Shown piece after piece: positions 11,421 through 63,522 of a DNA stretch of 64,000 nucleotides. Source of the stretch: Siphonodentalium dalli (lineage: Eukaryota; Mollusca; Scaphopoda; Gadilida; Siphonodentaliidae). Made by a program: the position numbers and the translations under genes. Location: contig CP136064.1 in NCBI GenBank assembly GCA_032622095.1, forward strand, positions 255,421,863 to 255,485,862, in the 5' to 3' direction. The number at the start of each line of letters is the position of its first letter. The first letter of the stretch is position 1. The notes beneath the pieces are model-generated. The model did not search any database. It was given only the letters and a program-made list of their open reading frames with translations, and was not told where the DNA came from.

Positions 11421-12740
11421 CAGACGACAACGAATGATAACAGTGTAGCAAGATTCATATGTATTAATGGGGAATGTTTGCATAAGGGCTAATCGCCAAT
11501 AAATTAATAAAAATAAAGATTTAATAACGAATAAGGAAGTTTGCATGTTCAAAGTGTACATTTTGGATATAACATAATTTTATTATAATAAATACAACAT
11601 CAGACATGTGAAATATAAAAGATGAGAAGCATTCCTATGAATGAGTTGGTTTACTCTGGTTTACTGTGATTTTCACACATATGTTTTCTTTTACCTAGAT
11701 ACCATTTCTTTGAGAATAAAATAAAACCTGGTGTTCCCCCCCCCACCCAATATATTGGTAAGTTTCTAACCTTGTCTGTGCAATGAATTGTCCTTGTATG
11801 AAGCCGGTGAAGTCCGATGTAGCACATTGTCTAGTTTCCTGACTCAAAATTATTATTGTATGTCCCTAATCTATACCAAACGTTCAGGTGAGGGATACAC
11901 CATCTTCAATTTGAGTTCACAGTGTTGTTACCATTCAGTATATCAAATCATAAGTTATAACTGTTAGAATGTTCGTACTGTTTTGTTCAGATATACTTAT
12001 ATTAAAGATAGAGGACGAACATAGATTTCGCACATGTGTGAAAATGAGAGCGAATGTGATACAGTTTATAGTCTATTATACTTATTTAACAAATGAATGT
12101 AGTTCGAGTGTGTTCTATTGCGTGGCACTGTGGCCGTTTGAGCACACTGTGCTAAACGGGCACGACATACACCAAAATAAACCACACTCAAACTATATTC
12201 GTTTCGTGTATATACAGCGACACACCCCTCAATAAAACACACTCAAACTACATTAATTTCTTATATTTGTGCGGCGTTTTCCTTATTAATTTCTATAAAT
12301 TCCGCTGATTTATTTTCTTAATATGTTTGCAGTTTCGATTTTTATACCATTCAGACTGTAAGTTAGCCCAACATTCACCTGTGAATGTCGATCATTTAGT
12401 CTACGGCCGCGTAATTGAAAACACGTCCAGCTATTTTACTACAGCTTTTAGTCATCTGCATATATCAAAATTATGTGACGTCTGTTCGTGTTATGGTGTG
12501 TGTTATTGGGAGATGAAGCCCATGACCAATCACCGAACATGATTTAATTTAAAACGTACGGGCTATGTAAAGCATGTATTAAATTTTGAGTATCTCAACA
12601 GCCATCGTATACCTCATGTAGGAATGAAACAAAAGTTAATACCGATAACCAAATGCCATGCGCTGTGAATGCTCACCACTCAGCCAATGCCACCCACTAT
12701 TATTGTTGTAACCACCAAGCCACGCGGTTGTTCCAACAGG
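11421..12740. other. No recognisable gene
   Basis: AT-rich, with a C-run at about 11738. A loosely repeated 'aaacacactcaaactacatt' block occurs twice between 12160 and 12265. Open frames are below 90 codons and carry no recognisable motif. Confidence 0.45.
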
Positions 12741-12746
12741 CAGTTT

Positions 12747-12945
12747 CCACGCTGCATTCGTCAGCTCCTCTTCGGTATGAAGAGTAGCCAATCTTACTGC
12801 CACATCTTGACATGTTATGTTGGCACCCGCCCACGTGACTGTATTGTCGTGCCAGACTTTTTCGCTTGCTGAAAGATTAGATTCGTTTTAGAAAAACATT
12901 CTGTTTCGATGCTCCATTTTGTTTCAAAATTATAGCACCTTGCCG
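12747..12945 (+). repeat. Dispersed repeat, copy 1
   Basis: Direct homologue of 15112-15305. Shared blocks include 'cagctcctcttcggtatgaa', 'ctgacatgtt', 'ttttagatc' and 'atgctccattttt'. No coding capacity seen. Confidence 0.6.
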
Positions 12946-33504: not shown

Positions 33505-34135
33505 ATCATATGCGTACACCCTCTGTAGTTAACACACTTCATGGGATTATCAGAACATTATGTATTTAACACACTTCACGGGATTATCAGAATATTATGT
33601 CGTTAACAAACTTTCATGAGATCAAGTGCGTACACCCTCTATAGTTAACACACTTCATGAGATTATCATAGCTCTCTGTTGTTAACACACTTCATGGGAT
33701 TATCAGAACATTATGTAGTTAACACACGCCATGATATTATCAGAACATTATGTAGTTAACACACTTTCATGAGATCATGTGCGTACACCCTCTATAGTTA
33801 ACACACTTCATGAGATTATCATAACTCTCTGTTGTTAACACACTTCATGAGATTATCATAGCTCTCTGTTGTTAACACTCTTCATGAGATTATCACAACT
33901 CTCTGCAGTTAACACACTTCATGAGGTCATGTGCGCACACCCTATGTAGTTAACACACTACATGATATTATCAGAACCTTCTGTAGTTAACACACTTCAT
34001 GAAATTATCATAACTCTCTGTAGTTAACACACTTCATGATCATAACTCTCTGTAGTTAACACACCCCATGAGGCCACGTGCGTACATCCTCCGTAGTTAA
34101 CACACTCCATGAAATTATCAGAACATTCTGAAGTT
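33505..34135 (+). repeat. Minisatellite, about 38-42 bp unit
   Basis: Around fifteen units of TAGTTAACACACTTCATGAG followed by 'attatcagaac' and 'tctctg' or 'attatg'. Every few units is a longer variant containing 'gtgcgtacaccctct' (33510, 33625, 33780, 33930, 34080). This gives a higher-order period of roughly 150 bp. Confidence 0.85.
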
Positions 34136-41375: not shown

Positions 41376-42182
41376 CTGCACTGGTAGTATCTGTTATCTG
41401 CGTATTCGTTCTGAAAACTCATCCGTAAACAATAATAGACCATTGGTTTAAACATATCTTAATAGTATATTAATATACAGATACTAGGGTATTGGAGGAC
41501 AAGTTCTTGAAACTTAGATGGACCTCCGCTCCCCACAATATGTATAACAACAAATATAAACAGTATATTAAACAGAAATGGTTTGGCATGACGGGTGCAT
41601 GTATACAATAATAATTGATACTATTAAGTATTACTGATGAGTGATAGTGTGGTGGTGGTGGTGGAGGGTTAAGTGTGGGGTGCAAGTTGACTACATAGGT
41701 CGCGTGATTCGTTAAGGGGTGTTAATGGGGGTACACGTGTTAGGGGTGGCTAGCTTTATAGCCGACAGGTGGGTTTGTACGTGAACGTTATACTTAATGG
41801 CTTTTATGATGACTGAATTAAATCAGTACATATATAAAACTATGTATACATATATACACAAGGATACATAATATATATATAATAAATTTAGTTTATTGAT
41901 TAATCACGAGACGATTTAATAAATTTTAAGGCTGCAACAAGGAGAACGAAATTATCGTTGCCATTGAGCGTGATGTCACCAATCAAAATAGTTTTGTGGG
42001 AATATATTTGAAATGATTGCATTCTATTAATCAGTTCAGTTCTTTGGGTTGAGTACAAAGGACAGTTTATTAGGAAGTGTTCACTATCTTCCTGTGGAAT
42101 CCACAGGCACAGAATCGATCATCGGCAATGAAGTTGCTCACTTTGTCGTGATTTAACCCTTTACCTAACAGAACGGCCCTGT

Positions 42183-42251
42183 GCCAATGCATTATCTTAT
42201 ATATGCGAGTCGACCATAGGTCGCCTCGCATTTATAAGAGAATGCATTGGC
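42183..42251. repeat. 69-bp palindrome, copy P1
   Basis: Near-perfect dyad with GCCAATGCATTATCTTATAT on the left and its inverse on the right, centred on CGACCATAGGTCG. The outer flank is 'ggccctgt'. Confidence 0.95.
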
Positions 42252-42330
42252 TTAACACATTAAAAATTATAAAATTGTTAAAGAATGTAAGAAAAAATGG
42301 TAAAAAGTGTTAAAAAACGTTTTTTTTTAG

Positions 42331-42399
42331 GCCAATGCATTCTCTTATATATGCGAGGCGACCTATGGCCGACTCGCATATATAAGAGAATGCATTGGC
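42331..42399. repeat. 69-bp palindrome, copy P2
   Basis: Same dyad as P1, centred on CGACCTATGGCCG, with the outer flank 'cacagggc'. This mirrors the P1 flank, so the pair is arranged symmetrically. Confidence 0.95.
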
Positions 42400-43316
42400 A
42401 CAGGGCATAACTGTAACTATCACAATGTGGTCAAGGAGCCGGTTCCAATGATATCCATATTTGTTTGGTTCTATTGAGACAGACATAAGATATTTTAGGC
42501 TGTTGAAGCTTTATTTGGCCGGTTTTGGCCGTTTTGTTGGGTAAAGGGTTAAATCGCCACAACCATTTCTCAGCCGGCAATGCAAAATGTTTGTTGAACG
42601 ATCACCTATGATAATGTAGTCGGGGATTTTTTGTTTGGGAAGAACAGATGACTTAAAAGAATTGTATCATTTATTTTGAATATCCTTTGCCAAAGAATTC
42701 CAAACTTGTATAGTACAAGGAATGAATGATTGTTTGAATGTCTCAAGTAGGCAAAAGTTGTTTAAGAAATCACTCGAGTTTCGCAGAAAGTATCGATTAA
42801 GCAGGTCTGTTAAGAATCAGGGGGCTTTTCCGTTAACTATTTTGCGCATTAAACTTAACTATAGTGTGCATTGCGTCGACGTTGGAAAGGTTGCCAACCA
42901 CACTCTGGTAGTAAGGTGGAGTTCGATGCATATGTAGTAAGTCCGGAAACGACTCCAGCCGTTATAACCCTCGTGATATACCTTGTCTGGTAGGGATTTT
43001 TCGGTATTAGGCGCATGGTCCCAAACACAGCTACCGTACTCTAGAATTGGTAAGACATGAGCTTTGAACATTGTGTCAAGGGATTTTCTTGGTAGTATAT
43101 ATTTTAATCTACGAATTTGAGACCATTCTCGCCCTAGAACAGCATGTTTTGTTTTGTCATGTGTGGTGATGCTTTTATGTTATTTTATAATTGCGGTTTC
43201 ACGGTCGAGACGGGCGTAATTTACTTCATGGACGTCAACGTCGTTCGATTGCGCATATATGTGTTTACCAGTGTAATATGTATATTGAACGACACAAGTG
43301 CGTTAACATGTTGACG

Positions 43317-50004: not shown

Positions 50005-51206
50005 TTGCATTTCACATGAAAAAAACTAAAGCTTTATGGCTTTCTAACAACATCAGCTATGTAGAGAACACGCAAACTGTATACAATTCTTGTGTTGGCT
50101 CAAACGCTTCACCACTATACGTCAGTACTGCCCTACGCGCGCAACGAAATATAGTCCCTTTTAGTTACGTCTTTATAAATAATCAGTTTTCATTAGTAAT
50201 TCACAGAATGGTACGGAATCAAAATTACGTCACGCGCACAGGTATACAATGAAAGTGATTACCGCTTGGACTATTTGCAATTAGCCACTAGTGACAGATA
50301 AGGAAATATGTAATGGATTTTCCAATGATATTATTGGGGTTTCATGTGATATATGCATATTATTCGCTTAAGAAGGCGCCCCATTCGTGAATTTCAAAAG
50401 ATAAACATTTCAAAATATCAATTTGAAGGACAAAAATCATTATTCATAATAAGCAGCGTATGCCACAGTACTATAACAATTCTTTACCCTCACAATCTTA
50501 GATATATGTTAAAAAAATACTTTTAAAAAAAAACTCGATTAGATTGATAGAGATAGTAGATGACAGGAAATATTTGAAAAATCCACACTGAATGATCTAT
50601 ACTAAGAACTCAACTAGGGTATGTGCTCAGTCTACCATTTGAAATCAAGATCGTCTGTGTGAAGCAGTTATTAGTTTTGGCAGCTATTTGCAGAACTATG
50701 ATTTGCTGTTTCGTGCAGTTTGCTGATATTTTCGCCGCAATCCACATCCCATTACCATGTTACAACCGCCGTACATTTTTATGTGACTCGTTATGATGTC
50801 TTCAAACTGTATTAAATTTAAATTGGAAAACCGGGACTATTTCTTAAATAATAGAACATATACTATCAAAGTTGATATCCCGTCTTGCTGGCTGAAACGA
50901 ACACGAATGTTTGCATTGTGTGTCGAGTAAAATTGATGTTCATTGTGTGTCCATTAAATTGACAAAACAGACTGAAATGCTCTACTGTAAGTTCCAAATA
51001 ATTGTTGAAGTCCGTTGTCAAGTAATATGGATGATTAAACCAGATCTTTTGAAATATTAGTGACAATTTAACACTGTAAATTCACAAAGTCGATATAGTT
51101 GCATAACTGCATGCACCCCTTGCTGTCATCATACGATGTGACCATAACGTGGTATAGTTCAGTCAGTTTTTTGTGACCCCGAGGGTACCAGACTCGTATA
51201 GATCAT
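50005..51206. other. No recognisable gene; downstream flank of the tail-exon gene
   Basis: No exon or repeat recognised. The gene ending at 51348 (minus strand) should be cleaved just after 51207, so this is its 3' flank. Confidence 0.4.
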
Positions 51207-51212
51207 TTTATT
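51207..51212 (-). terminator. Poly(A) signal of the repeat-tail gene
   Basis: AATAAA on the minus strand (TTTATT on the plus), about 135 bases past the stop at 51348. This is a usual 3' UTR length for a short terminal exon. Confidence 0.55.
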
Positions 51213-51247
51213 TGATATGGAACGCCGCAATAGACCTGTGTACATAT

Positions 51248-51347
51248 CAGCGTCCGATGTAGATGTATCCGGGAGCTGCGGCAGATTTATATAACTGCTA
51301 CAGATGTATCCGGGAGCCGCGGCTGATTTATATAACTGCTATCAGCG
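51248..51347 (-). repeat. Decayed minisatellite units in the 3' UTR
   Basis: Two imperfect 54-bp units follow the stop codon. A 7-base insertion at the end of the last in-frame unit (near 51355-51362, 'tatacac') throws the next unit out of frame and creates the TGA. A deletion then removes part of the following unit. Repeats that do not code have decayed, whereas those upstream have not. Confidence 0.65.
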
Positions 51348-51836
51348 TCAGCTGTAGAGTGTATATGTATCCGGGAGCTGCGGCTGATTTATATAGCTGC
51401 TATCCGCGTCCGCTGTAGATATATCCGGGAGCTGCGGCTGATTTATGTAACTACTATCAGCGTCCGCTGTAGATATATCCGGGAGCTGCGGCTGATTTAT
51501 ATAACTACTATCAGCGTCCGCTGTAGATGTATCCGGGAGCTGCGGCTGATTTATATAACTGCCATCAGCGTCCATTGTAGATGTATCTGGAATCCGCGGC
51601 TGATTTATATAACTGCTATCAGCGTCCACTGTAGATGTATCCGGGAGCTGCGGCTGATTTATATAACTGCCATCAGCGTCCATTGTAGATGTATCTGGAA
51701 GCCGCGGCTGATTTATATAACTGCTATCAGCGTCCGCTGTAGATGTATACGGGAGCTGCGGCTGATTTACATAACTGCCATCAGCGTCCATTGTAGATGT
51801 ATCTGGAAGCCGCGGCTGATTTATATAACTGCTATC
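51348..51836 (-). CDS. Displaced distal part of YINQ-repeat tail exon
   Basis: The minus strand encodes nine 18-residue (54-bp) repeats of the pattern [VMA]DAD[SG]SYINQP[QR]LPDTST, ending LPDTYTLYS and a TGA at 51348-51350. Eight repeats have YINQ and one YVNQ; all keep the +2 Asn. Units alternate between DADSSY and DADGSY forms, giving a 108-bp higher-order period in part of the array. Without the insertion at 51837-56361 and one copy of TATC, this segment continues exactly in frame from 56362-56690. The ancestral exon then encodes about 270 residues. As the DNA now stands it is cut off by an earlier stop and would need splicing over the insertion to be used. Most substitutions seen between units are conservative or silent. 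Confidence 0.7.
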   Translation of the reverse strand, partial: DSSYINQPRLPDTSTMDADGSYVNQPQLPYTSTADADSSYINQPRLPDTSTMDADGSYINQPQLPDTSTVDADSSYINQPRIPDTSTMDADGSYINQPQLPDTSTADADSSYINQPQLPDISTADADSSYINQPQLPDISTADADSSYINQPQLPDTYTLYS

Positions 51837-52295
51837 GGAATCACTGAACTAAATGGTTTCCCATAGGCGACAGTGTTAACGTTTCCGCCAAATTCACTGA
51901 ATTGAAGCCTGCAGGCCATACCAGTGATGTTTACCCAGCTAGATTGACACCAGTTGATCACGAAAATGCAAGAAAAATCATAGGTCATGTGTTTACTTTT
52001 AAAAATAAATCCCCAAGTGTACGACGGGGCTATCCCACAGCCAAATTTGATCTGGAAAAATCCAGAACTACAGCAGCTAGTTAAATAAATTTCCCGCTCA
52101 CAAAAATCCATTCCCCCATTCATTCACCAGTTTAAATTATTTAGATATTATGTACAAGTCAAATAAACGCGATCTCATCCTTTAACAACGTGTCCGCATG
52201 TATCAGGTGAAGGTCATTCTTCAGTTACCTTCACCTTTAGGGTTCCACGGTGTACTCGCTCCCCGACTCTAGAACACATTTAGCTCCCTGATTCC
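51837..52295 (+). mobile_element. Element E, copy 1 (459 bp)
   Basis: Begins GGAATCACTGAACTAAATGG and ends with the imperfect inverse (CATTTAGCTCCCTGATTCC). The inverted termini match at 19 of 24 positions. The left flank is TATC (51833-51836). It contains a subterminal dyad AGGTGAAGGT/ACCTTCACCT near 52205-52232. A 78-codon plus-strand frame (51848-52084) starts just inside the terminus. Non-autonomous DNA transposon by structure; superfamily unknown. Confidence 0.85.
51848..52084 (+). CDS. Conserved 78-codon frame inside element E
   Basis: An open frame with no ATG, first codon after a stop at 51845-51847. It includes 'DSVNVSAKF' and 'KPAGHTSDVYPARLTPVDHE' and ends 'EKSRTTAAS' with TAA. 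A splice-acceptor-like 'tttcccatag' precedes GCGACAG near 51866, and AATAAA overlaps the stop region (about 52084-52089). It could therefore be a captured 3'-terminal exon. The same frame is intact in E2-E4 (53206-53442, 54560-54796, 55914-56150), but those copies are identical and give no independent evidence. No family recognised. The 100-codon antisense frame is Cys-rich and looks like a shadow. Confidence 0.25.
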   Translation, partial: TKWFPIGDSVNVSAKFTELKPAGHTSDVYPARLTPVDHENARKIIGHVFTFKNKSPSVRRGYPTAKFDLEKSRTTAAS

Positions 52296-53194
52296 TATAT
52301 ATATGTATATGTGTGAAACACAGCGTTTCTTATAGTATTTTATCAAAATATAGACCTTACTGAAATACAAAATGGATTATATCGAGCAGTAGTTGTTTAT
52401 TTTTCCAATATGAGGCATCCTGAAAATTAGTGTCAATCCTCAAAATAAAGCCAAAAAATTTAGATTTTTTTTCAATTTTACTAGCTGATGCATCTCGTAT
52501 AACTGAAGAATGCCCTTATATACGATACTATTACTAAATTGAAGAGGATATGTTAATATACATTTTGAGTGGGATAACTTGTCCAATTTTAAACCCTTTT
52601 CATGCAAAATTTGTCAATTTATAATAAACATTTACAAAAATTAACAGAAAATTTAAATAAAAAATACTTTAATAGCATAATAAAGCAACTATAAGTCAAT
52701 TTAAATATCTAAACATCATCATACAACATCAGCCACAGTCTCAGGCATGAAATTTGACCAGATGGCAGGGCATACTGTCTGTTTAACAAACCTGCCATGA
52801 CAGTTTTGCACGACATTAACACTACTGGCGATGCCATCACCCCCCCCCCCCCGACTTGGGTGGGACTACGGTCCCCGATAAGGCTACTGGGTGCCGGGAA
52901 ATCTTAATTGGGTTAACTGCCACCTTTTCCCAATGGGGGGGGGGGGGGGGGGGCTAACACTACTCAAATTTTTGGGGAGGGGGGCTTTAGCCCCCCTGAC
53001 CCCCTAATGGTACCTGATGTCCATGCAAAATTCCCAGATTTATCACTTTCTTTACTATCTACAGGCGAATCCATGCGTTTCTTCTTTAAATCTGTCCAAA
53101 ATGTGGTCATTATCATTTGAAAATAAGAAAATATGGAATTAACAACTTATCATGGCGAGACGTGAAATTTCGTAAAATTCATATTTTTCCTATA
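52296..53194 (+). repeat. Spacer S, copy 1 (899 bp)
   Basis: Starts TATATATATGTATATGTGTG and ends 'atatttttcctata'. It has a C13 run near 52840 and a G19 run near 52935. The two other copies have a G15 run; that 4-base difference accounts for the whole length difference. No coding capacity recognised. Confidence 0.8.
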
Positions 53195-53653
53195 GGAATC
53201 ACTGAACTAAATGGTTTCCCATAGGCGACAGTGTTAACGTTTCCGCCAAATTCACTGAATTGAAGCCTGCAGGCCATACCAGTGATGTTTACCCAGCTAG
53301 ATTGACACCAGTTGATCACGAAAATGCAAGAAAAATCATAGGTCATGTGTTTACTTTTAAAAATAAATCCCCAAGTGTACGACGGGGCTATCCCACAGCC
53401 AAATTTGATCTGGAAAAATCCAGAACTACAGCAGCTAGTTAAATAAATTTCCCGCTCACAAAAATCCATTCCCCCATTCATTCACCAGTTTAAATTATTT
53501 AGATATTATGTACAAGTCAAATAAACGCGATCTCATCCTTTAACAACGTGTCCGCATGTATCAGGTGAAGGTCATTCTTCAGTTACCTTCACCTTTAGGG
53601 TTCCACGGTGTACTCGCTCCCCGACTCTAGAACACATTTAGCTCCCTGATTCC
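53195..53653 (+). mobile_element. Element E, copy 2
   Basis: Apparently identical to copy 1. Flanked by TATA on both sides (53191-53194 and 53654-53657), as if inserted at a TATA within S. Confidence 0.85.
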
Positions 53654-54548
53654 TATATATATGTATATGTGTGAAACACAGCGTTTCTTATAGTATTTTA
53701 TCAAAATATAGACCTTACTGAAATACAAAATGGATTATATCGAGCAGTAGTTGTTTATTTTTCCAATATGAGGCATCCTGAAAATTAGTGTCAATCCTCA
53801 AAATAAAGCCAAAAAATTTAGATTTTTTTTCAATTTTACTAGCTGATGCATCTCGTATAACTGAAGAATGCCCTTATATACGATACTATTACTAAATTGA
53901 AGAGGATATGTTAATATACATTTTGAGTGGGATAACTTGTCCAATTTTAAACCCTTTTCATGCAAAATTTGTCAATTTATAATAAACATTTACAAAAATT
54001 AACAGAAAATTTAAATAAAAAATACTTTAATAGCATAATAAAGCAACTATAAGTCAATTTAAATATCTAAACATCATCATACAACATCAGCCACAGTCTC
54101 AGGCATGAAATTTGACCAGATGGCAGGGCATACTGTCTGTTTAACAAACCTGCCATGACAGTTTTGCACGACATTAACACTACTGGCGATGCCATCACCC
54201 CCCCCCCCCCGACTTGGGTGGGACTACGGTCCCCGATAAGGCTACTGGGTGCCGGGAAATCTTAATTGGGTTAACTGCCACCTTTTCCCAATGGGGGGGG
54301 GGGGGGGCTAACACTACTCAAATTTTTGGGGAGGGGGGCTTTAGCCCCCCTGACCCCCTAATGGTACCTGATGTCCATGCAAAATTCCCAGATTTATCAC
54401 TTTCTTTACTATCTACAGGCGAATCCATGCGTTTCTTCTTTAAATCTGTCCAAAATGTGGTCATTATCATTTGAAAATAAGAAAATATGGAATTAACAAC
54501 TTATCATGGCGAGACGTGAAATTTCGTAAAATTCATATTTTTCCTATA
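53654..54548 (+). repeat. Spacer S, copy 2 (895 bp)
   Basis: Same as S copy 1 except for the shorter G run (G15). Confidence 0.8.
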
Positions 54549-55007
54549 GGAATCACTGAACTAAATGGTTTCCCATAGGCGACAGTGTTAACGTTTCCGC
54601 CAAATTCACTGAATTGAAGCCTGCAGGCCATACCAGTGATGTTTACCCAGCTAGATTGACACCAGTTGATCACGAAAATGCAAGAAAAATCATAGGTCAT
54701 GTGTTTACTTTTAAAAATAAATCCCCAAGTGTACGACGGGGCTATCCCACAGCCAAATTTGATCTGGAAAAATCCAGAACTACAGCAGCTAGTTAAATAA
54801 ATTTCCCGCTCACAAAAATCCATTCCCCCATTCATTCACCAGTTTAAATTATTTAGATATTATGTACAAGTCAAATAAACGCGATCTCATCCTTTAACAA
54901 CGTGTCCGCATGTATCAGGTGAAGGTCATTCTTCAGTTACCTTCACCTTTAGGGTTCCACGGTGTACTCGCTCCCCGACTCTAGAACACATTTAGCTCCC
55001 TGATTCC
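54549..55007 (+). mobile_element. Element E, copy 3
   Basis: Apparently identical to copies 1 and 2, with TATA on both sides. Confidence 0.85.
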
Positions 55008-55902
55008 TATATATATGTATATGTGTGAAACACAGCGTTTCTTATAGTATTTTATCAAAATATAGACCTTACTGAAATACAAAATGGATTATATCGAGCA
55101 GTAGTTGTTTATTTTTCCAATATGAGGCATCCTGAAAATTAGTGTCAATCCTCAAAATAAAGCCAAAAAATTTAGATTTTTTTTCAATTTTACTAGCTGA
55201 TGCATCTCGTATAACTGAAGAATGCCCTTATATACGATACTATTACTAAATTGAAGAGGATATGTTAATATACATTTTGAGTGGGATAACTTGTCCAATT
55301 TTAAACCCTTTTCATGCAAAATTTGTCAATTTATAATAAACATTTACAAAAATTAACAGAAAATTTAAATAAAAAATACTTTAATAGCATAATAAAGCAA
55401 CTATAAGTCAATTTAAATATCTAAACATCATCATACAACATCAGCCACAGTCTCAGGCATGAAATTTGACCAGATGGCAGGGCATACTGTCTGTTTAACA
55501 AACCTGCCATGACAGTTTTGCACGACATTAACACTACTGGCGATGCCATCACCCCCCCCCCCCCGACTTGGGTGGGACTACGGTCCCCGATAAGGCTACT
55601 GGGTGCCGGGAAATCTTAATTGGGTTAACTGCCACCTTTTCCCAATGGGGGGGGGGGGGGGCTAACACTACTCAAATTTTTGGGGAGGGGGGCTTTAGCC
55701 CCCCTGACCCCCTAATGGTACCTGATGTCCATGCAAAATTCCCAGATTTATCACTTTCTTTACTATCTACAGGCGAATCCATGCGTTTCTTCTTTAAATC
55801 TGTCCAAAATGTGGTCATTATCATTTGAAAATAAGAAAATATGGAATTAACAACTTATCATGGCGAGACGTGAAATTTCGTAAAATTCATATTTTTCCTA
55901 TA
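55008..55902 (+). repeat. Spacer S, copy 3 (895 bp)
   Basis: Same as S copy 2 as far as I can compare by eye. On the minus strand it contains an AATAAA (55109-55114), which could serve as a poly(A) signal for a transcript truncated in E4. Confidence 0.8.
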
Positions 55903-56361
55903 GGAATCACTGAACTAAATGGTTTCCCATAGGCGACAGTGTTAACGTTTCCGCCAAATTCACTGAATTGAAGCCTGCAGGCCATACCAGTGATGTTTAC
56001 CCAGCTAGATTGACACCAGTTGATCACGAAAATGCAAGAAAAATCATAGGTCATGTGTTTACTTTTAAAAATAAATCCCCAAGTGTACGACGGGGCTATC
56101 CCACAGCCAAATTTGATCTGGAAAAATCCAGAACTACAGCAGCTAGTTAAATAAATTTCCCGCTCACAAAAATCCATTCCCCCATTCATTCACCAGTTTA
56201 AATTATTTAGATATTATGTACAAGTCAAATAAACGCGATCTCATCCTTTAACAACGTGTCCGCATGTATCAGGTGAAGGTCATTCTTCAGTTACCTTCAC
56301 CTTTAGGGTTCCACGGTGTACTCGCTCCCCGACTCTAGAACACATTTAGCTCCCTGATTCC
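55903..56361 (+). mobile_element. Element E, copy 4
   Basis: Last E of the array. Left flank TATA (from S3), right flank TATC (56362-56365), the latter matching the left flank of E1. Its minus-strand end supplies 19 in-frame codons and a TAA (56303-56305) to the exon at 56362-56690. Confidence 0.85.
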
Positions 56362-56690
56362 TATCAGCGTCCACTGTAGATGTATCCGGGAGCTGCGGCT
56401 GATTTATATAACTGCCATCAGCGTCCATTGTAGATGTGTCTGGAAGCCGCGGCTGATTTATATAACTGCTATCAGCGTCCACTGTAGACGTACCCGGGAA
56501 CTGTAGCAGATTTATATGCAGACGGCGGGCATCATCGTGTGCACCACTAACAGTCGTCTCGACATCACAGTGTGTATGTTTTTCGGCCACTGTGGAGTCG
56601 TACTGGACACGGTATTCCTCCACCGATGCATAGTAGTGGACTTCATTCTCGGTGGGTTGCATTTGACGCCGACGTCGCCACAGGAAATAC
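56303..56690 (-). CDS. Terminal exon: membrane-proximal and YINQ-repeat cytoplasmic tail, truncated by a transposon
   Basis: The minus-strand exon starts at 56690 after 'gtctgatttcag'. The first base completes a split codon. It then reads YFLWRRRRQMQPTE, a hydrophobic end followed by an Arg cluster, the form of a transmembrane helix end with stop-transfer signal. Next come 'HYYASVEEYRVQYD' (Tyr-rich) and 'VSGAHDD', a degenerate repeat ('HINLLQFPGTST'), two full 18-residue repeats (VDADSSYINQPRLPDTST and MDADGSYINQPQLPDTST) and VDAD, where element E4 begins at 56361. The last 19 codons (RNQGAKCVLESGSEYTVEP) and the stop are transposon-derived. By family knowledge, YINQ fits the pY-x-N ligand of the Grb2 SH2 domain, so a role as a receptor or adaptor tail recruiting Grb2-like proteins after tyrosine phosphorylation is inferred. 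Ectodomain exons are not in the window, so receptor type is unknown. Confidence 0.75.
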
Positions 56691-57287: not shown

Positions 57288-58268
57288 TCAGATGGAGCAA
57301 AGGACACACACAAATATGAGACAATGAATAAATAAGCGTTTCTCATCACACATGAGTTCCAGAGTAGGATGACTTCCACATCCACATGCATAAGTGAGGA
57401 CTCCTACCGGCGAGAGTAAATCCAGGAATGAAAATGTAGGAATTCCGAATATGTTTATGATTTTATACCAGAATTCATTTCTGAGTTCCTGTATGTGCGG
57501 AGAGAAGCAATGGAGGTACATGTGTGACATGAGGTCAGAGTATTGGCACACACGGTGCTTGCATAGTGCGTTGTTGTCATATGTCGTTCTGGAGATGATG
57601 TTTGCCATATAGAGAGCTTTAGATTTGTACTTTGGGTGTTCCCTGCATAGTAGCCAGCCTCTCCAGATCGACATAGGATAGGATTTAACCATCCTAAAGA
57701 AATTCAGTGATTCATTTGTCAAATCACACCATGGTGCTTGATATGCGAAGTTGTTGATCTTCTCTTTTACAATTTCTTTCCATTGTTTATGTGATGGAAA
57801 GAACCCAGAATCAATAAAATTTGTGAGGTAATCGATGAGATCATATGCGTGCAGGTGTGTGAATATTGCCTTCGCAAAGCCAGACAGGGGCCGTTTATAG
57901 AGGAGGTGGCCCTGAACATTGAACAGAAACACTCTTAGAGCATCGCGATGAGTGTTTGGAATATTTATTAGTGTTCCCAAGAATAAAAGTTTTTTCCGGT
58001 CTACTTCGACATGCATTGGTGTTAAACCAAGTAATGACAGTGAAGGTTCTGTACTTGTTCTACTAGGCAGACATTGAATATGTTTTATACACATACGATA
58101 GACTCTCTCAAGTTGCAGAACTTGTGTATTTGTCAGGCCATACCACATTTCACATGCATATAATGCCTTGGGGATTACTACGCATTTCAAAATTTCAAGA
58201 GCAGACGAAGGAGTCAGGAACTTGGTGATTGGCGATCGGCATGCACCGAAGAATGTCCTTCTTAGCAT
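57288..58268 (-). pseudogene. LINE ORF2 C-terminal region, 326 codons
   Basis: Follows the RT. It includes 'SSALEILKCVVIPKALYACE' and 'MWYG' (the LINE thumb-region block 'ALYxCExW') near the start, 'TSTEPSLSLLGLTPM' and, near the end, 'CKHRVCQYSDLMSHMYLHC', a CCHC-like knuckle. It is separated from the RT frame by a frameshift near 58270-58315, around a T8-containing run. The C-terminus is at 57288. Confidence 0.8.
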
Positions 58269-58269
58269 T

Positions 58270-58635
58270 GCACATGCTCTGTCAATATTTCGACATCTAT
58301 CAGCGGATTTTTTTTAGGGATACCAAGATGAATAACGTCTTTGACTTCCTTCAGAGTGTTCAGTCCGAGAAACCATTTATGTTCTCTCGCTGGAGCGTTT
58401 GAGCGTTTACGAGTTTCAAAGACGATAATTTCACTTTTAGCAAATGAGTATTCAAATTTCCACGTTTTGCTGTACTTATAACATTTATTCAGAAGAATTT
58501 TTAAGCCACCTTCTGAGTAAGAAAGAATGCAGACATCGTCGGCAGTTGTCGGACATGAACACGAAATTGAATCTATATGAGCGCCCTCCGGTGATAATGA
58601 GAGTTCCTGTAGGAGGTCGTCTATATAGATAAGAT
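58270..58635 (-). pseudogene. LINE RT segment carrying the catalytic ADD motif, out of frame
   Basis: This stretch encodes the middle of the RT in frames other than its neighbours: 'YIDDLLQELSL' near 58600, 'PTTADDVCILSYSEGGL' at about 58500-58550 (the motif C 'ADD' pair), then 'FAKSEIIVFETRKR' and 'FLGLNTLKEVK'. One frameshift near 58625-58640 and another near 58310 isolate it. Confidence 0.75.
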
Positions 58636-59724
58636 ACAGGAAAGGGGACAGAATTCACCTTGTCTTGTACCTTGCTCTATGGTGAACGGTTCTGAAAAAT
58701 AGCTAGCATATCGCACTTTGCTTTTGATATCCGAGTACATGGCAGCAACAACTCTAAGCAAACGCCCTCCGAGGCCTTTCTGCATTAATTTATAGAGTAG
58801 TCCTTCGTGCCATACTCTGTCAAAAGCTTTTTGGGAATCAAAAAATGCGGCGTATACCTTAGAATTGTTGAGATGTGCATATTCGACGACATCTTGGAGT
58901 ATATATGAGGTTACTGTGCAGCCAACCCCTTTCTGGAAGCCATTCTGCAGACAATTCGGAAAACCGGCGAACACATCGCATTTAAGAAGCCTGTCCAAAA
59001 TAATCATCTCAAAAAGTTTATACATTGATGGCAGTAAAGTTATAGCTCTGTAACTATCTGTGTTGTCGACAGGCTTTGGGTCACCCTTGAAAATCGGAAT
59101 TATTATTCCCATTTTCATTTTAGATGGAATAAATTCGTATCTGAGCATACTTGAGAATAGCAGACACAGGGCAGGAAGTAGAGCATCCGGTGCATGACTT
59201 AGATGTCCATTTACAATATTGGTGTACCCACTAGCTTTGTTCCGCTTCAGCCGTTTAATGCAATCACTTAGTTCTGCACCTGTGACGCCCTTACACAGTG
59301 AGTTATCTCTACGCTCTTGGTCAGACATTTCACTTATCTGGGCAATGGTGTCGTTCACCGACGATTCAAAAGATGGGATATTATGACGACACCTACTATA
59401 CAGGTTTTGAAAATATTTGTTCCAACCTAGTACAATGTCTTGAGGGTCCCTGCACATTTTGTTGTCAAACTTTAATTCTGACACAGGGTTCACACCACAC
59501 TTATTTGGGAGTTTAATTGCTTTCCAGAAAGCGGGTTGGTTGTTTTTAGCGAGATATTCTATGTTCTCTATTGATTTTGTTTGGGAATCCAACACTGCTG
59601 TACGGTGACGATTTCGGAATATTCGTTTAGAATCTCTATATGCTCGAAATGTTGGATTGTCAATCGTTTTGGGTCGCCCCTTTGATATCCAGCATTTCCG
59701 GCGTTGACGCATTTCACCATGCAA
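58621..59724 (-). pseudogene. LINE reverse transcriptase, N-terminal two thirds
   Basis: 368-codon frame. It starts in the linker ('RQRRKCWISKGRP'), then 'IIPIFKGDPKPVDNTDSYRA' with 'ITLLPSMYKLFE' (RT motifs 1-2), 'NGFQKGVGCT', motif A 'AAFFDSQKAFDRVWH' with the first catalytic Asp, and motif B 'QGTRQGEFCPL'. It ends by frameshift before motif C. It is in frame with the endonuclease upstream across a single TGA. Confidence 0.85.
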
Positions 59725-60621
59725 TCATTTCAATTCAGAATTCCAGTAAGACTCTGTTTCCTTAGAAGCAGAGAGAAGAATATCGACTAGTTTCGAATAT
59801 AGTGCGTCAACGTCGAATATGCTCGATATGCATCTATTGACTGTGTGCAGTTTATTCCGAACCACTTCTTGATATGCATCTAGATTAACCTTTGACCAGT
59901 TGACAATATTGTTATGATCATTTAGATGTGCGCTACCCTGATAGTTGAATTCCAACGAACAGAAATCTGGCCTGTGGTTTGAGGTATTAAGAGCCTCATC
60001 TTCAATTATTCCTACTCTATTCACAAGGTCAAGTTTGCACCGGGGAATGACAATGTGGTCAATTAGTGATTTTGAGTGTTCAGGGTTGTATGGGACAAAT
60101 GAATATTTTGGTCCGGTGCATGCACTCAGAGTGACGAGTGACTTTAGCTTATGAGTTTCCAGAAATGAATTGAAAGCAGTACATCTACTTGCCCGTTTCG
60201 GCCACTCAATCTGAGCTTTTTCCAGATTGGAAAATAAGTGGGCATTCAAATCGCCCATAATTATTACAGTTCCATGGGAAGAGTACTCGAATATGATATC
60301 ACGTAGTGCATTAATGCAGTCATTGTACTCTATGTCCGTGTAATTTGTGTTGGGCATGTATACTTCAACGATGTAAACGAATTCCTGATACCCCAAGCGG
60401 AGTTTTATGCCAATTAAGCGTTGGTGGTCTAGACGCATATCATTGAAGCAGTTGCGGTGATTTTTGTGAACGAGGAGAGCAACCCCGTCACGCACGTATT
60501 GCCCACCAGAGGACGTCGTCAATGTGCGACCAGGTTTACTAATACTAAAATATTGGTCATGAATATTATCGAGCAGGCGAAGGCCCTCTTCAATTAACCA
60601 GTGTTCAGATAAACCAATCAA
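59725..60621 (-). pseudogene. LINE AP-type endonuclease, 5' truncated
   Basis: 298-codon frame. It begins IGLSEHWL (Glu of the catalytic ExxW block), then 'GVALLVHKNHRNCFND', 'IMGDLNAHL' (the GDxNxH motif), 'SLIDHIVIPR' (the SxxDH strand) and 'SNHRPDFCSL'. The last corresponds to the usual SDHxP, here with Asn for Asp. It ends in a TGA at 59725-59727 in the same frame as the RT, which starts at the next codon. The first residue lies at the junction with a second 3' UTR copy. Confidence 0.85.
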
Positions 60622-60934
60622 AAAACCAAAACACTTCTCTTTTTCACACTGTCTATCAATAATGATTTATTAATCATACTATACTATATAATTCCAATAA
60701 ATTACATTTCTTGCTCGCACAATTACACAATATATGTGAAAACAGACGATTTAGCCGGGGTTTCGATGCACAAAATTAAAATCATATATCATTTGAATAG
60801 TATTGAATATGAAGTCTTTCTTCCTTGTCTGTACTTCTGCATACATAATTTTCTCTTCAGCGCAGATACGATTATCAATATATTTGAGCTTCATTACAAA
60901 TCATTTACGCTTGAAACAAATTAATTATACCAAG
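60621..60934 (-). mobile_element. LINE 3' UTR fragment joined head-to-tail, copy 2
   Basis: A 314-bp copy of the 3' UTR of the same LINE family. Its 3' terminus (GTGTTTTGGTTTTT) abuts the truncated endonuclease of the next element with only the shared T-run between. It is itself 5' truncated at 60934. It differs from copy 1 by a 17-base gap and several substitutions, so the two derive from different templates. Confidence 0.85.
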
Positions 60935-61012: not shown

Positions 61013-61340
61013 CCCTTTACCCAACAAACCGGCCAAAAACGGCCAAATAAAGCTGCAACAGACTAAATTATCTTGGGTCTGTCTCAATAAAGCCATACAA
61101 ATATGGATATCATTGGAACCGGCTCATTGACCACATTGTGATGGTTACAGTTATGCCCTGTGCCAATGCATTCTCTTATATATGCGAGTCGACCTTAGGT
61201 CGCCTCGCATATATAAGAGAATGCATTGGCCTAAAAACAATCCTTTTTTTAACACTTTTTACCATTTGTCTTACATTCTTTAACAATTTTATAATTTTTA
61301 ATGTGTTAAGCCAATTAGGGCCGTTCTGTTGGGTAAAGGG
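61013..61340 (-). mobile_element. piggyBac-like MITE, 328 bp, one palindrome
   Basis: TTAA at 61009-61012 and 61341-61344; termini CCCTTTACCCAACAAACCGG and (inverse of right) CCCTTTACCCAACAGAACGG. Same family as 42157-42548, in the opposite orientation. It carries a single 69-bp palindrome at 61162-61230. Confidence 0.9.
61162..61230. repeat. 69-bp palindrome, copy P3
   Basis: GCCAATGCATTCTCTTATAT and its inverse, centred on CGACCTTAGGTCG. Same dyad as P1 and P2 at 42183 and 42331. Confidence 0.95.
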
Positions 61341-62321: not shown

Positions 62322-63522
62322 CGGTGGCTGGTTTAGGACATGGGAATTTTTTTTTTATTTCGTGGCCACGAAACACTAATTCGTGGCCACGAAATAACTA
62401 ACTCGTGGCCACGAAATAACTAATCGTGATATACGATCGTCAGTCATTGTTGTAATGGAAGCGGATAGAGGTATATGGAAGTAGTTGTCCACAATCTTGG
62501 CATGAGCCACGGCGATATGAGATAAAGGGTGTTGTAGGGTGGCCCGTAAAACAAATGAAGTAATCACCCCTTTCACAAACCCGATCCAAAGTTGCCACCG
62601 TCCGGGGGGTCACATAGGGCACTCACGACATTCAGTATATCTTGGGGCCACCATACAACACCCATTATACCACATCAAACGGTTAAGGGGCCGAGAAATT
62701 GTATAGGTGCCATATTTGAACCCATCTGGTGCGGCCATTTTGGATCGCGGAGGGTGAAAGTGGGTGAATATTTAGTTTGTATCAGGGGTCTCCCTACAAC
62801 ACACTTTATTCGACCTAAAATGTGGGGGGGGGTTGCATGGGTACCATATATGGACCCCTCTTATCAGTTATCATTTTCGCTCGAGGTGGGCTGAAGGTGT
62901 GAACAATTAGCTGCTACACTACACTACCCTTTATTTGATCTATATCGATCAGTGGCCGAGAAATAATGGTTACCCTATTTGACCCCTGCTGAGCGGCGAC
63001 CATTTTGGATCGGGTATGGTTGAAATGGGTGAATATTTTTAGTTTGTTTTGGGGCCACCCTAAAACCCCTTATTTGACATTTATCGGTCAATAGGCCGAG
63101 AGAAATGTCATTCCCATTCGACCCCTTGTGGTAAAAACTAATGAATATTCAGTTTGTCTTGGAGCAACCTAACCCTTGTTCCCCGTTCTCTCTGGGCTAG
63201 TTTTTATCGGACGTTCATATCCTCACAGAGCCCGGGTCCCACACCATAAGGGGTTTATAGTAGCTTCTCTGCGATCGTACGCATTGCACCTGGTGCAAGT
63301 GTGACCAGTCGCCGTAAAGGTATCTGGATATATATCAGTTATTTCGTGGCCACGAATTAGTTATTTCGTGGCCAAGAGTGAGCTATTTCGTGGCCACGAA
63401 TTAGTATTTCGTGGCCACGAATTAGCTATTCCGTGGCCACGAATTAGTTATTTCGTGGCCACGAATTAGTATTTCGTAGTTACGAAATAAAAAAAAAATC
63501 CCATGTCCTAAACCAGCCACCG
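62322..63522 (+). mobile_element. TIR element with arrays of a 14-bp palindrome, 1.2 kb
   Basis: Termini CGGTGGCTGGTTTAGGACAT and the exact inverse, continuing through 'gggaattttttttttatttc', with TA on both sides (62320-62321, 63523-63524). Just inside both ends are arrays of the perfect palindrome TTCGTGGCCACGAA: about three copies at 62360-62420 and about seven, some imperfect, at 63340-63480. The middle (62590-63180) is a diverged tandem array of roughly 130-155 bp units containing 'gcggccattttggatcg' and 'gggtgaatatttagtttg'. Non-coding; class uncertain. Confidence 0.85.

Follow-up and report, generated by a model that had tools for sequence, protein, structure and literature searches.

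A candidate family of single-pass WSC receptors with multi-site phosphotyrosine tails in the scaphopod Siphonodentalium dalli, and a probably disrupted member split by satellite DNA

To what kind of protein does an exon belong that encodes a tandem array of YINQ motifs, and does the copy at this locus still work? We analysed a stretch of 64,000 nucleotides of the Siphonodentalium dalli genome (contig CP136064.1, positions 255,421,863 to 255,485,862; hereafter the window), whose minus strand carries such an exon. An initial annotation, made from the letters of the window, had read it as a receptor tail with 11 docking sites for Grb2, hence a strongly multivalent scaffold. Our preferred explanation, to which we give a probability of roughly 0.58, places the exon in a multigene family of single-pass receptors that combine WSC domains with a phosphotyrosine tail of several sites, and reads the window locus as a disrupted member of it. 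The evidence consists of exons, splice phases, motifs, paralogues, a contrast between the core and the rest of the repeat unit, and the identity of an insertion within the exon. From these we infer topology, phosphorylation, partners and loss of function.

The minus-strand splice acceptor proposed earlier is present in the sequence. It leads into the frame YFLWRRRRQ, and the exon opens with YFLWRRRRQMQPTENEVHYYASVEEYRVQYDST... (Table 1). The array unit is indeed 54 bp, or 18 residues (Tandem Repeats Finder scores of 783 at 51302-51836 and of 226 at 56363-56517). With the insertion removed, our recount again gives 11 Y[IV]NQ sites, two in 56689-56303 (129 codons, stop included) and nine in 51836-51348 (163 codons, stop included). 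As assembled, the frame of the acceptor reaches 2 of the 11 sites and stops at 56305-56303; the remaining nine end at a further stop. One unit beyond that stop is out of frame, as had been stated for the repeats downstream, but the frame of the array then reopens into a last unit and a family-type C-terminus, SSYINLPQLPDTSTSDADMYTGLLRRSISNKMIYTSLVPSGSQKTD*. The part of this C-terminus that resembles an immunoreceptor tyrosine-based activation motif (ITAM) starts at 51242, past an in-frame stop and the out-of-frame unit.

The insertion that splits the array is 4,525 bp long. It comprises three copies of a single repeat, of 1354, 1354 and 1358 bp, followed by 459 bp of a fourth copy, an exact prefix. 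The two 1354-bp copies do not differ from each other, and the 1358-bp copy departs from them solely in how long a C-run is. A 200-base probe was taken from each end of the insertion and matched an array on contig C1 at 83.79-83.86 Mb. With 40 matches scored per search and more than 700 further candidates unscored in each, 36 of the 40 fell on this array for one end, the other four being the window itself, and 39 of the 40 for the other end, with one at C1:68.51 Mb. Its long matches in two C1 loci share 99.0-99.7% identity with the insertion unit. We are thus dealing with a satellite fragment inside a coding repeat. It supplies the last 19 residues of the acceptor's frame, RNQGAKCVLESGSEYTVEP, the first codon of which spans the junction. 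SEYTVEP* was therefore rejected as the C-terminus of the receptor itself, since it is located in the satellite; the relatives L007-L009 end in YTSLVP(S/T)GSQ(T/K)T.

GATA flanks the insertion on each side, and the insertion's ends, GGAATCA and TGATTCC, make up an inverted repeat of 7 bases. A classical transposon was nevertheless rejected: satellite copies on C1 continue past the end points, and we therefore take the insertion for a piece of satellite that was joined in at short homologies. An assembly error, with satellite reads misplaced into the exon, might be suspected given that assemblers confuse near-identical copies. The duplication of GATA at the junctions, the differing point of the satellite unit at which each junction falls and the different C-run length in one copy make this very improbable, and the later stop is independent of the insertion. 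The window copy also illustrates how satellite DNA can land within a coding repeat. On C1 itself, the array of this repeat extends over 83788954-83857602 (loci L025-L030); its units measure about 1,350 bp, and some steps are of about 2,240 bp.

We searched the genome (2.23 Gb, nine contigs) with the tail pieces as queries. Six tail exons were found, two of them without a tandem array. L007-L010 are open to the stop. The five acceptors inspected share their context and phase, the one on C1 being one base shorter (TGATTTAG). All six tails end in YTSLLRRSISNEIIYTSL or close to it and show the ITAM spacing YxxL-x10-YxxL, which lies beyond a stop in the window copy and in another frame than the first part of the exon in L031. 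The number of YxN sites per gene copy is 1, 2, 5, 5, 11 (window, 2+9) or 13, and YINL accounts for half (5 of 10) of the YxN units in L007 and L008. The most divergent tails, L010 and L031, carry no tandem array of the SSYINQ/L type. Because of this, the array probably arose by expansion of a single YxN site. Comparison of paralogous loci by translated frames was uninformative, as introns are conserved too.

A membrane-helix exon had been expected upstream of the tail, and one with the matching splice phase was found outside the window. In the whole genome, 11 small exons carry a matching hydrophobic stretch. Every one of them is flanked by an AG acceptor and a GTRAG donor and leaves in phase 2 at GTAAGT, the exons having been chosen by a pattern that demands such sites; they are entered in phase 1. 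The predicted join of donor AT/GTAAGT and acceptor AG/G, drawn from genomic exons alone, gives ...CSACM-Y(F/I)LW in frame with the basic inner stretch. With the tail acceptor, the predicted frame reads ...CSACM-YFLWRRR. A found tail follows 4 of the 11 membrane exons (window, L007, L008 and C1).

The predicted outer part comes from a WSC domain encoded by two half exons. A weak Pfam match at L012 (15.4 bits) gave the first hint. When the two halves of the L016/L012 locus are joined (a predicted exon join of 82 residues with eight Cys), the score is 38.3 bits, against a cut-off of 27.8 for PF01822. A WSC second-half exon is located 12-27 kb upstream of 7 of the 11 membrane exons, on the same strand, and each of the ten first-half matches at E<1e-9 has a second half 0.8-31 kb downstream, also on the same strand. 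All four exons occur in order at two C4 loci, 262386160-262408141 and 262458691-262493485. A further WSC-like half at the start of L016 is weak (11.6 bits, E 0.11) and hints at more than one WSC domain per receptor. Pfam searches with all three forward frames of L013, L015, L016 and the initial 5.2 kb of L007 gave nothing useful, and a PDB search with the joined WSC domain returned no match at E 0.01. Elsewhere in the genome, closely spaced WSC-domain exons of near-equal score form two opposite-strand clusters at C2:210.67-210.77 and 213.49-213.54 Mb (150 of 300 candidates scored).

A tandem repeat exceeds chance by construction; it becomes informative when one asks whether differences between its units are constrained, and a surplus of silent differences had been set as a test beforehand. 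Units were taken by the 18-residue register with no residue required, which gave 37 units in five pieces, including two degenerate first units. Tyr is kept in 34 of the 37, Asn in 36 and both in 34. The earlier statement that the units keep both residues stands for most of them and fails in a few: Tyr is lost where the window array and the L007 array begin, in degenerate first units of which one also lacks Asn, and in one L009 unit. For ratios of non-synonymous to synonymous differences (pN/pS), 35 units were used, a stop-containing unit and a 19-residue L008 unit being dropped. In 595 pairs, the six leading codons (SSYINQ) have a pN/pS of 0.25, against 0.89 for the twelve that follow; in the 428 pairs between loci, the values are 0.24 and 0.90. 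SSYINQ has the lowest pN/pS of the 18 circular six-codon windows, both overall and between loci, and the core falls to 0.14 without the two edge units (pattern-picked units). The silent excess is thus restricted to the core, since the whole unit gives 0.56-0.62 and the whole-unit frame-shifted controls give 0.37 and 1.78. Distinct amino-acid changes number 4 in the core and 31 in the rest when the edge units are left out (p 0.006; hand count, 34 units). Constraint on the docking core of the inner units is likely from these comparisons but not firmly shown.

Several observations weigh against our explanation. With the two edge units included, distinct changes number 14 in the core and 30 in the rest, with no departure from what length predicts (p 1.0), so that the excess is not robust in this test. 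Pairs of units are non-independent, and homogenisation can distort the ratios. An earlier, pattern-picked set of units (35 found; 34 and 33 used) required Asn and Tyr or Asp, which biases its counts. At the level of exons, 4 of the 11 membrane exons, including those of the window and of the C1 copy with 13 YINQ, have no nearby family WSC exon in the genome searches. None was found in 47 kb (window) and 40 kb (C1) upstream, where family WSC hidden Markov models were used that recover two controls, both in their training set, at E<1e-27; a divergent or farther exon could escape them. Conversely, for 7 of the 11 membrane exons the searches, one of which scored 150 of 4445 candidates, yielded no tail of this type. 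The searches yielded no membrane exon for the two tails near 273 Mb and no signal-peptide exon. The array is absent from both 273-Mb tails (L010 and L031), hence is not family-wide, and L031 needs two frames. Finally, the joining of WSC, membrane and tail exons is a prediction from genomic exons.

Could the array be a coding minisatellite with no docking function, in which homogenisation keeps Tyr and Asn in the inner units while edge units that escape it decay? The loss of Tyr from both degenerate first units, the tally that follows length once they are counted, the whole-unit ratio of 0.62 and the 0.37 of one shifted frame all speak for this. The core, however, is spared pairwise and between loci (0.24-0.25) and the rest is not (0.89-0.90). 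Such core-only sparing counts against homogenisation because the latter would affect the whole unit. The ITAM-like C-terminal part, which lies outside the array, is kept as well. We therefore regard the absence of a docking function as unlikely.

As for the window copy, the reading as a receptor-tail exon fits the single-pass family as far as the exons go, but this copy is itself most likely disrupted, with a predicted loss of receptor function. The array is split by a satellite fragment and the frame ends before the ITAM-like part, so that the copy would no longer work as such a receptor. The ectodomain exon that had been anticipated upstream did not appear in the 47 kb searched, and the idea of a working 11-site scaffold finds no support, given the split array, the second stop and this missing WSC exon. 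Alternatively, the gene might still encode a functional receptor, cut down to two YINQ sites and a satellite-encoded end. Its splice sites and open frame are intact up to the insertion. Before the array, the ratio of non-synonymous to synonymous substitution rates (dN/dS) is unremarkable for this copy, at 0.51-0.75 against L007-L009, which give 0.47-0.93 among themselves (all tail pairs 0.29-0.93, one pair saturated). Nevertheless, the insertion is about 99% like its C1 relatives, too recent to reveal later constraint, the ITAM-like end is cut off, no WSC exon was found ahead of the membrane exon within those 47 kb, and the membrane stretch has a Lys in its first third. A shortened functional receptor thus appears improbable. 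The window and C1 copies may be 5'-truncated, or may use other or more distant outer exons.

Table 1. Features of the window and of related tail exons. Positions without prefix are those of the window.
Feature	Position	Strand	Description
Splice acceptor CTGATTTCAG	56700-56691	(-)	Tail exon starts at 56690, frame YFLWRRRRQ
5' part of tail exon	56303..56690	(-)	YFLWRRRRQ, degenerate unit, 2 YINQ units, 19 insertion-encoded residues, stop
Two 54-bp units	56363..56470	(-)	SSYINQPRLPDTSTMDAD / GSYINQPQLPDTSTVDAD
Insertion	51837..56361	(-)	3.34 copies of 1,354-bp satellite, GATA at both junctions
Remainder of array	51348..51836	(-)	Nine Y[IV]NQ units, single frame, ends at TGA 51350-51348
Further unit	51302..51347	(-)	Out of frame with preceding array
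Last unit (YINL) and family C-terminus	51159..51301	(-)	ITAM-like YTGLLRRSISNKMIYTSL and stop; beyond stop at 51350
LINE-type element (long interspersed nuclear element)	57288..60666	(-)	Endonuclease (PF14529) and reverse transcriptase (PF00078) pieces; intron between membrane exon and tail exon
Membrane exon of window gene	C4:255488380-255488502		9.8 kb upstream of tail exon, outside window; matching splice phase
L007 tail exon	C4:262407656		162 codons; 5 YxN
L008 tail exon	C4:262492772		238 codons; 5 YxN
L009 tail exon	C1:81531871		386 codons, no internal stop; 13 YINQ
L010 tail exon	C4:273460818		269 codons; 2 YxN
L031 tail exon	C4:273340564		Two frames needed; one SYINL

Which partners might such a tail recruit? 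The Grb2 SH2 domain strongly prefers Asn at pY+2 owing to a Trp at position EF1 (PMC7337045). In keeping with the Grb2-type assignment of the sites, the genome contains an exon for a Grb2-like SH2 domain (C5:53711186-53711344, one exon only, 70% identity over query residues 41-93) that carries the EF-loop Trp in YFLWVVKF; binding to the array is a prediction. Other tail motifs, YMEM in L008 and YVDM in L010, resemble PI3-kinase sites. At its end, the tail conforms to the ITAM consensus, YxxL/I-x(6-12)-YxxL/I. Syk engages ITAMs with its tandem SH2 domains, and both a Syk-like gene and SHARK occur in invertebrates (PMC10253181). Pfam found no kinase family in the tail pieces of the window, L009 and L010; a receptor tyrosine kinase of EGFR type was rejected, the tail pieces having no kinase domain. 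Pfam matches of the arrays below cut-off (RunxI, DUF1930, KH_Mug60-KHD4, AAA_lid_9 and YugN) were taken as chance driven by the repeats. We also observed, at L056 712-2619 on the minus strand (C1:245696512-245698419), a frame of 636 residues that is free of stops and introns and has two SH2 matches. By eye it bears the tyrosine-phosphatase signature HCSAGIGRTG and looks SHP2-like, possibly a retrocopy.

The same receptor family could carry an inhibitory tail. Immunoreceptor tyrosine-based inhibitory motifs (ITIMs) follow the pattern [SILV]xYxx[LIV], which EIIYTSL and SSYINL match; the second half of the tail end also fits. In this case, IxYxxL and SxYINL would recruit SHP2-type phosphatases, and YINQ would add Grb2 or compete with it. 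The YINL half of the L007 and L008 units and the open frame at L056, by eye SH2-SH2-phosphatase, are compatible with such a role. On the other hand, the paired YxxL spacing fits an ITAM equally well, and Q ends all 13 YxN units of the C1 copy and the 11 counted window units, unlike an ITIM. We consider an inhibitory tail possible but rather doubtful.

Under the preferred explanation of a WSC receptor family, an intact member would expose its WSC domain or domains outside, cross the membrane with a single helix encoded by a small exon, and have its tail on one further exon. That tail exon would provide a basic stretch, a number of individual tyrosine motifs and the ITAM-like end (YxxL-x10-YxxL), preceded in some copies by the 18-residue SSYINQ/L array. 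Binding of a ligand by the WSC domain would cluster the receptor, and a Src-type kinase would phosphorylate the tail. The ITAM-like pair would then recruit a tandem-SH2 protein (a Syk/SHARK-type kinase, or SHP2), while the YxN array would gather several Grb2-SOS together. The number of units would set the gain on the Ras side and could be changed by minisatellite expansion. As a tentative extension, a coding minisatellite might set the signalling strength of these WSC receptors: with every 54-bp unit, one more Grb2 site would be placed before the ITAM-like end, which would make an evolvable multivalent receptor. Equally speculative is its corollary, in which the YxN number, variable between gene copies, would perhaps vary between individuals too, and Grb2-SOS would be gathered without a LAT-like adaptor.

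Other features of the window were recorded. An open frame at 12639-12887 on the minus strand resembles a C-type lectin exon, with a PF00059 match of 18.3 bits (E 0.0039) that stays under the cut-off of 22.6. Tandem units of 22 bp with the palindrome TTCGTGGCCACGAA are found at 62359-62428 and 63337-63477, and 33521-34135 is filled by a 37-bp tandem repeat that also shows higher-order periods of 116, 153 and 190 bp. A dispersed short repeat, translated as about LWSTRIYKRMHWHRA, occurs at 42133-42407 and 61154-61229, as well as in L007, L010 and L011, several times in close opposite orientations. Rfam gave no match in the window at the gathering threshold. In the genome as a whole, miR-1985, a microRNA known as mollusc-specific, has a single exact match; of four stretches folded around it, two give a hairpin with z about -4, while two that were cut differently give -2.8 and -0.5, in line with a mollusc as the source.

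No such receptor was described among the literature matches listed for the WSC, ITAM and YINQ/Grb2 themes, most matches lying beyond those listed. A WSC domain protein is named in a table of mussel gill transcripts (PMC4581086). Like fungal Wsc sensors and animal Kremen, the family would combine an eight-Cys WSC domain outside, one membrane helix and a cytoplasmic tail (PMC9024836, PMC3927609). The eight Cys are the hallmark of the WSC domain, fungal Wsc proteins are wall sensors, Kremen is involved in Wnt regulation, and WSC domains have been suggested to bind carbohydrates (PMC9024836). Unlike the family described here, Kremen has Kringle and CUB domains besides WSC (PMC3927609). The window copy differs from both in that no WSC exon was found for it (47 kb upstream). 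To our knowledge, neither fungal Wsc sensors nor Kremen carry a YxN array or an ITAM-like end.

ITAM receptors include CD3, FcR gamma and fly Draper. The tail end of the family has the same YxxL/I-x(6-12)-YxxL/I spacing but, unlike them, the family has upstream WSC exons and a YxN array before the motif. If the reading is true, an invertebrate would here combine a WSC ectodomain with a tail that is ITAM-like and of immune type. The substrate domain of p130Cas, a cytosolic scaffold for Crk, has YxxP repeats that are not a near-perfect DNA tandem; it shares with the array the presence of many alike sites for one SH2 adaptor, with a different motif. LAT, NTAL and FRS2 are adaptors with several YxN sites, few in number and dissimilar. 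In contrast to these and to EGFR, the arrays line up 5 to 13 nearly identical sites at a constant spacing of 18 residues, with no kinase domain in the tail pieces. With Grb2 sites of the EGFR Tyr1068 type they have the pY-x-N core in common (PMC7337045). The single 11-site receptor first described is a weaker finding, its copy being split. If the intact members work as proposed, however, the family would offer a natural test of how signalling depends on the number of near-identical Grb2 sites.

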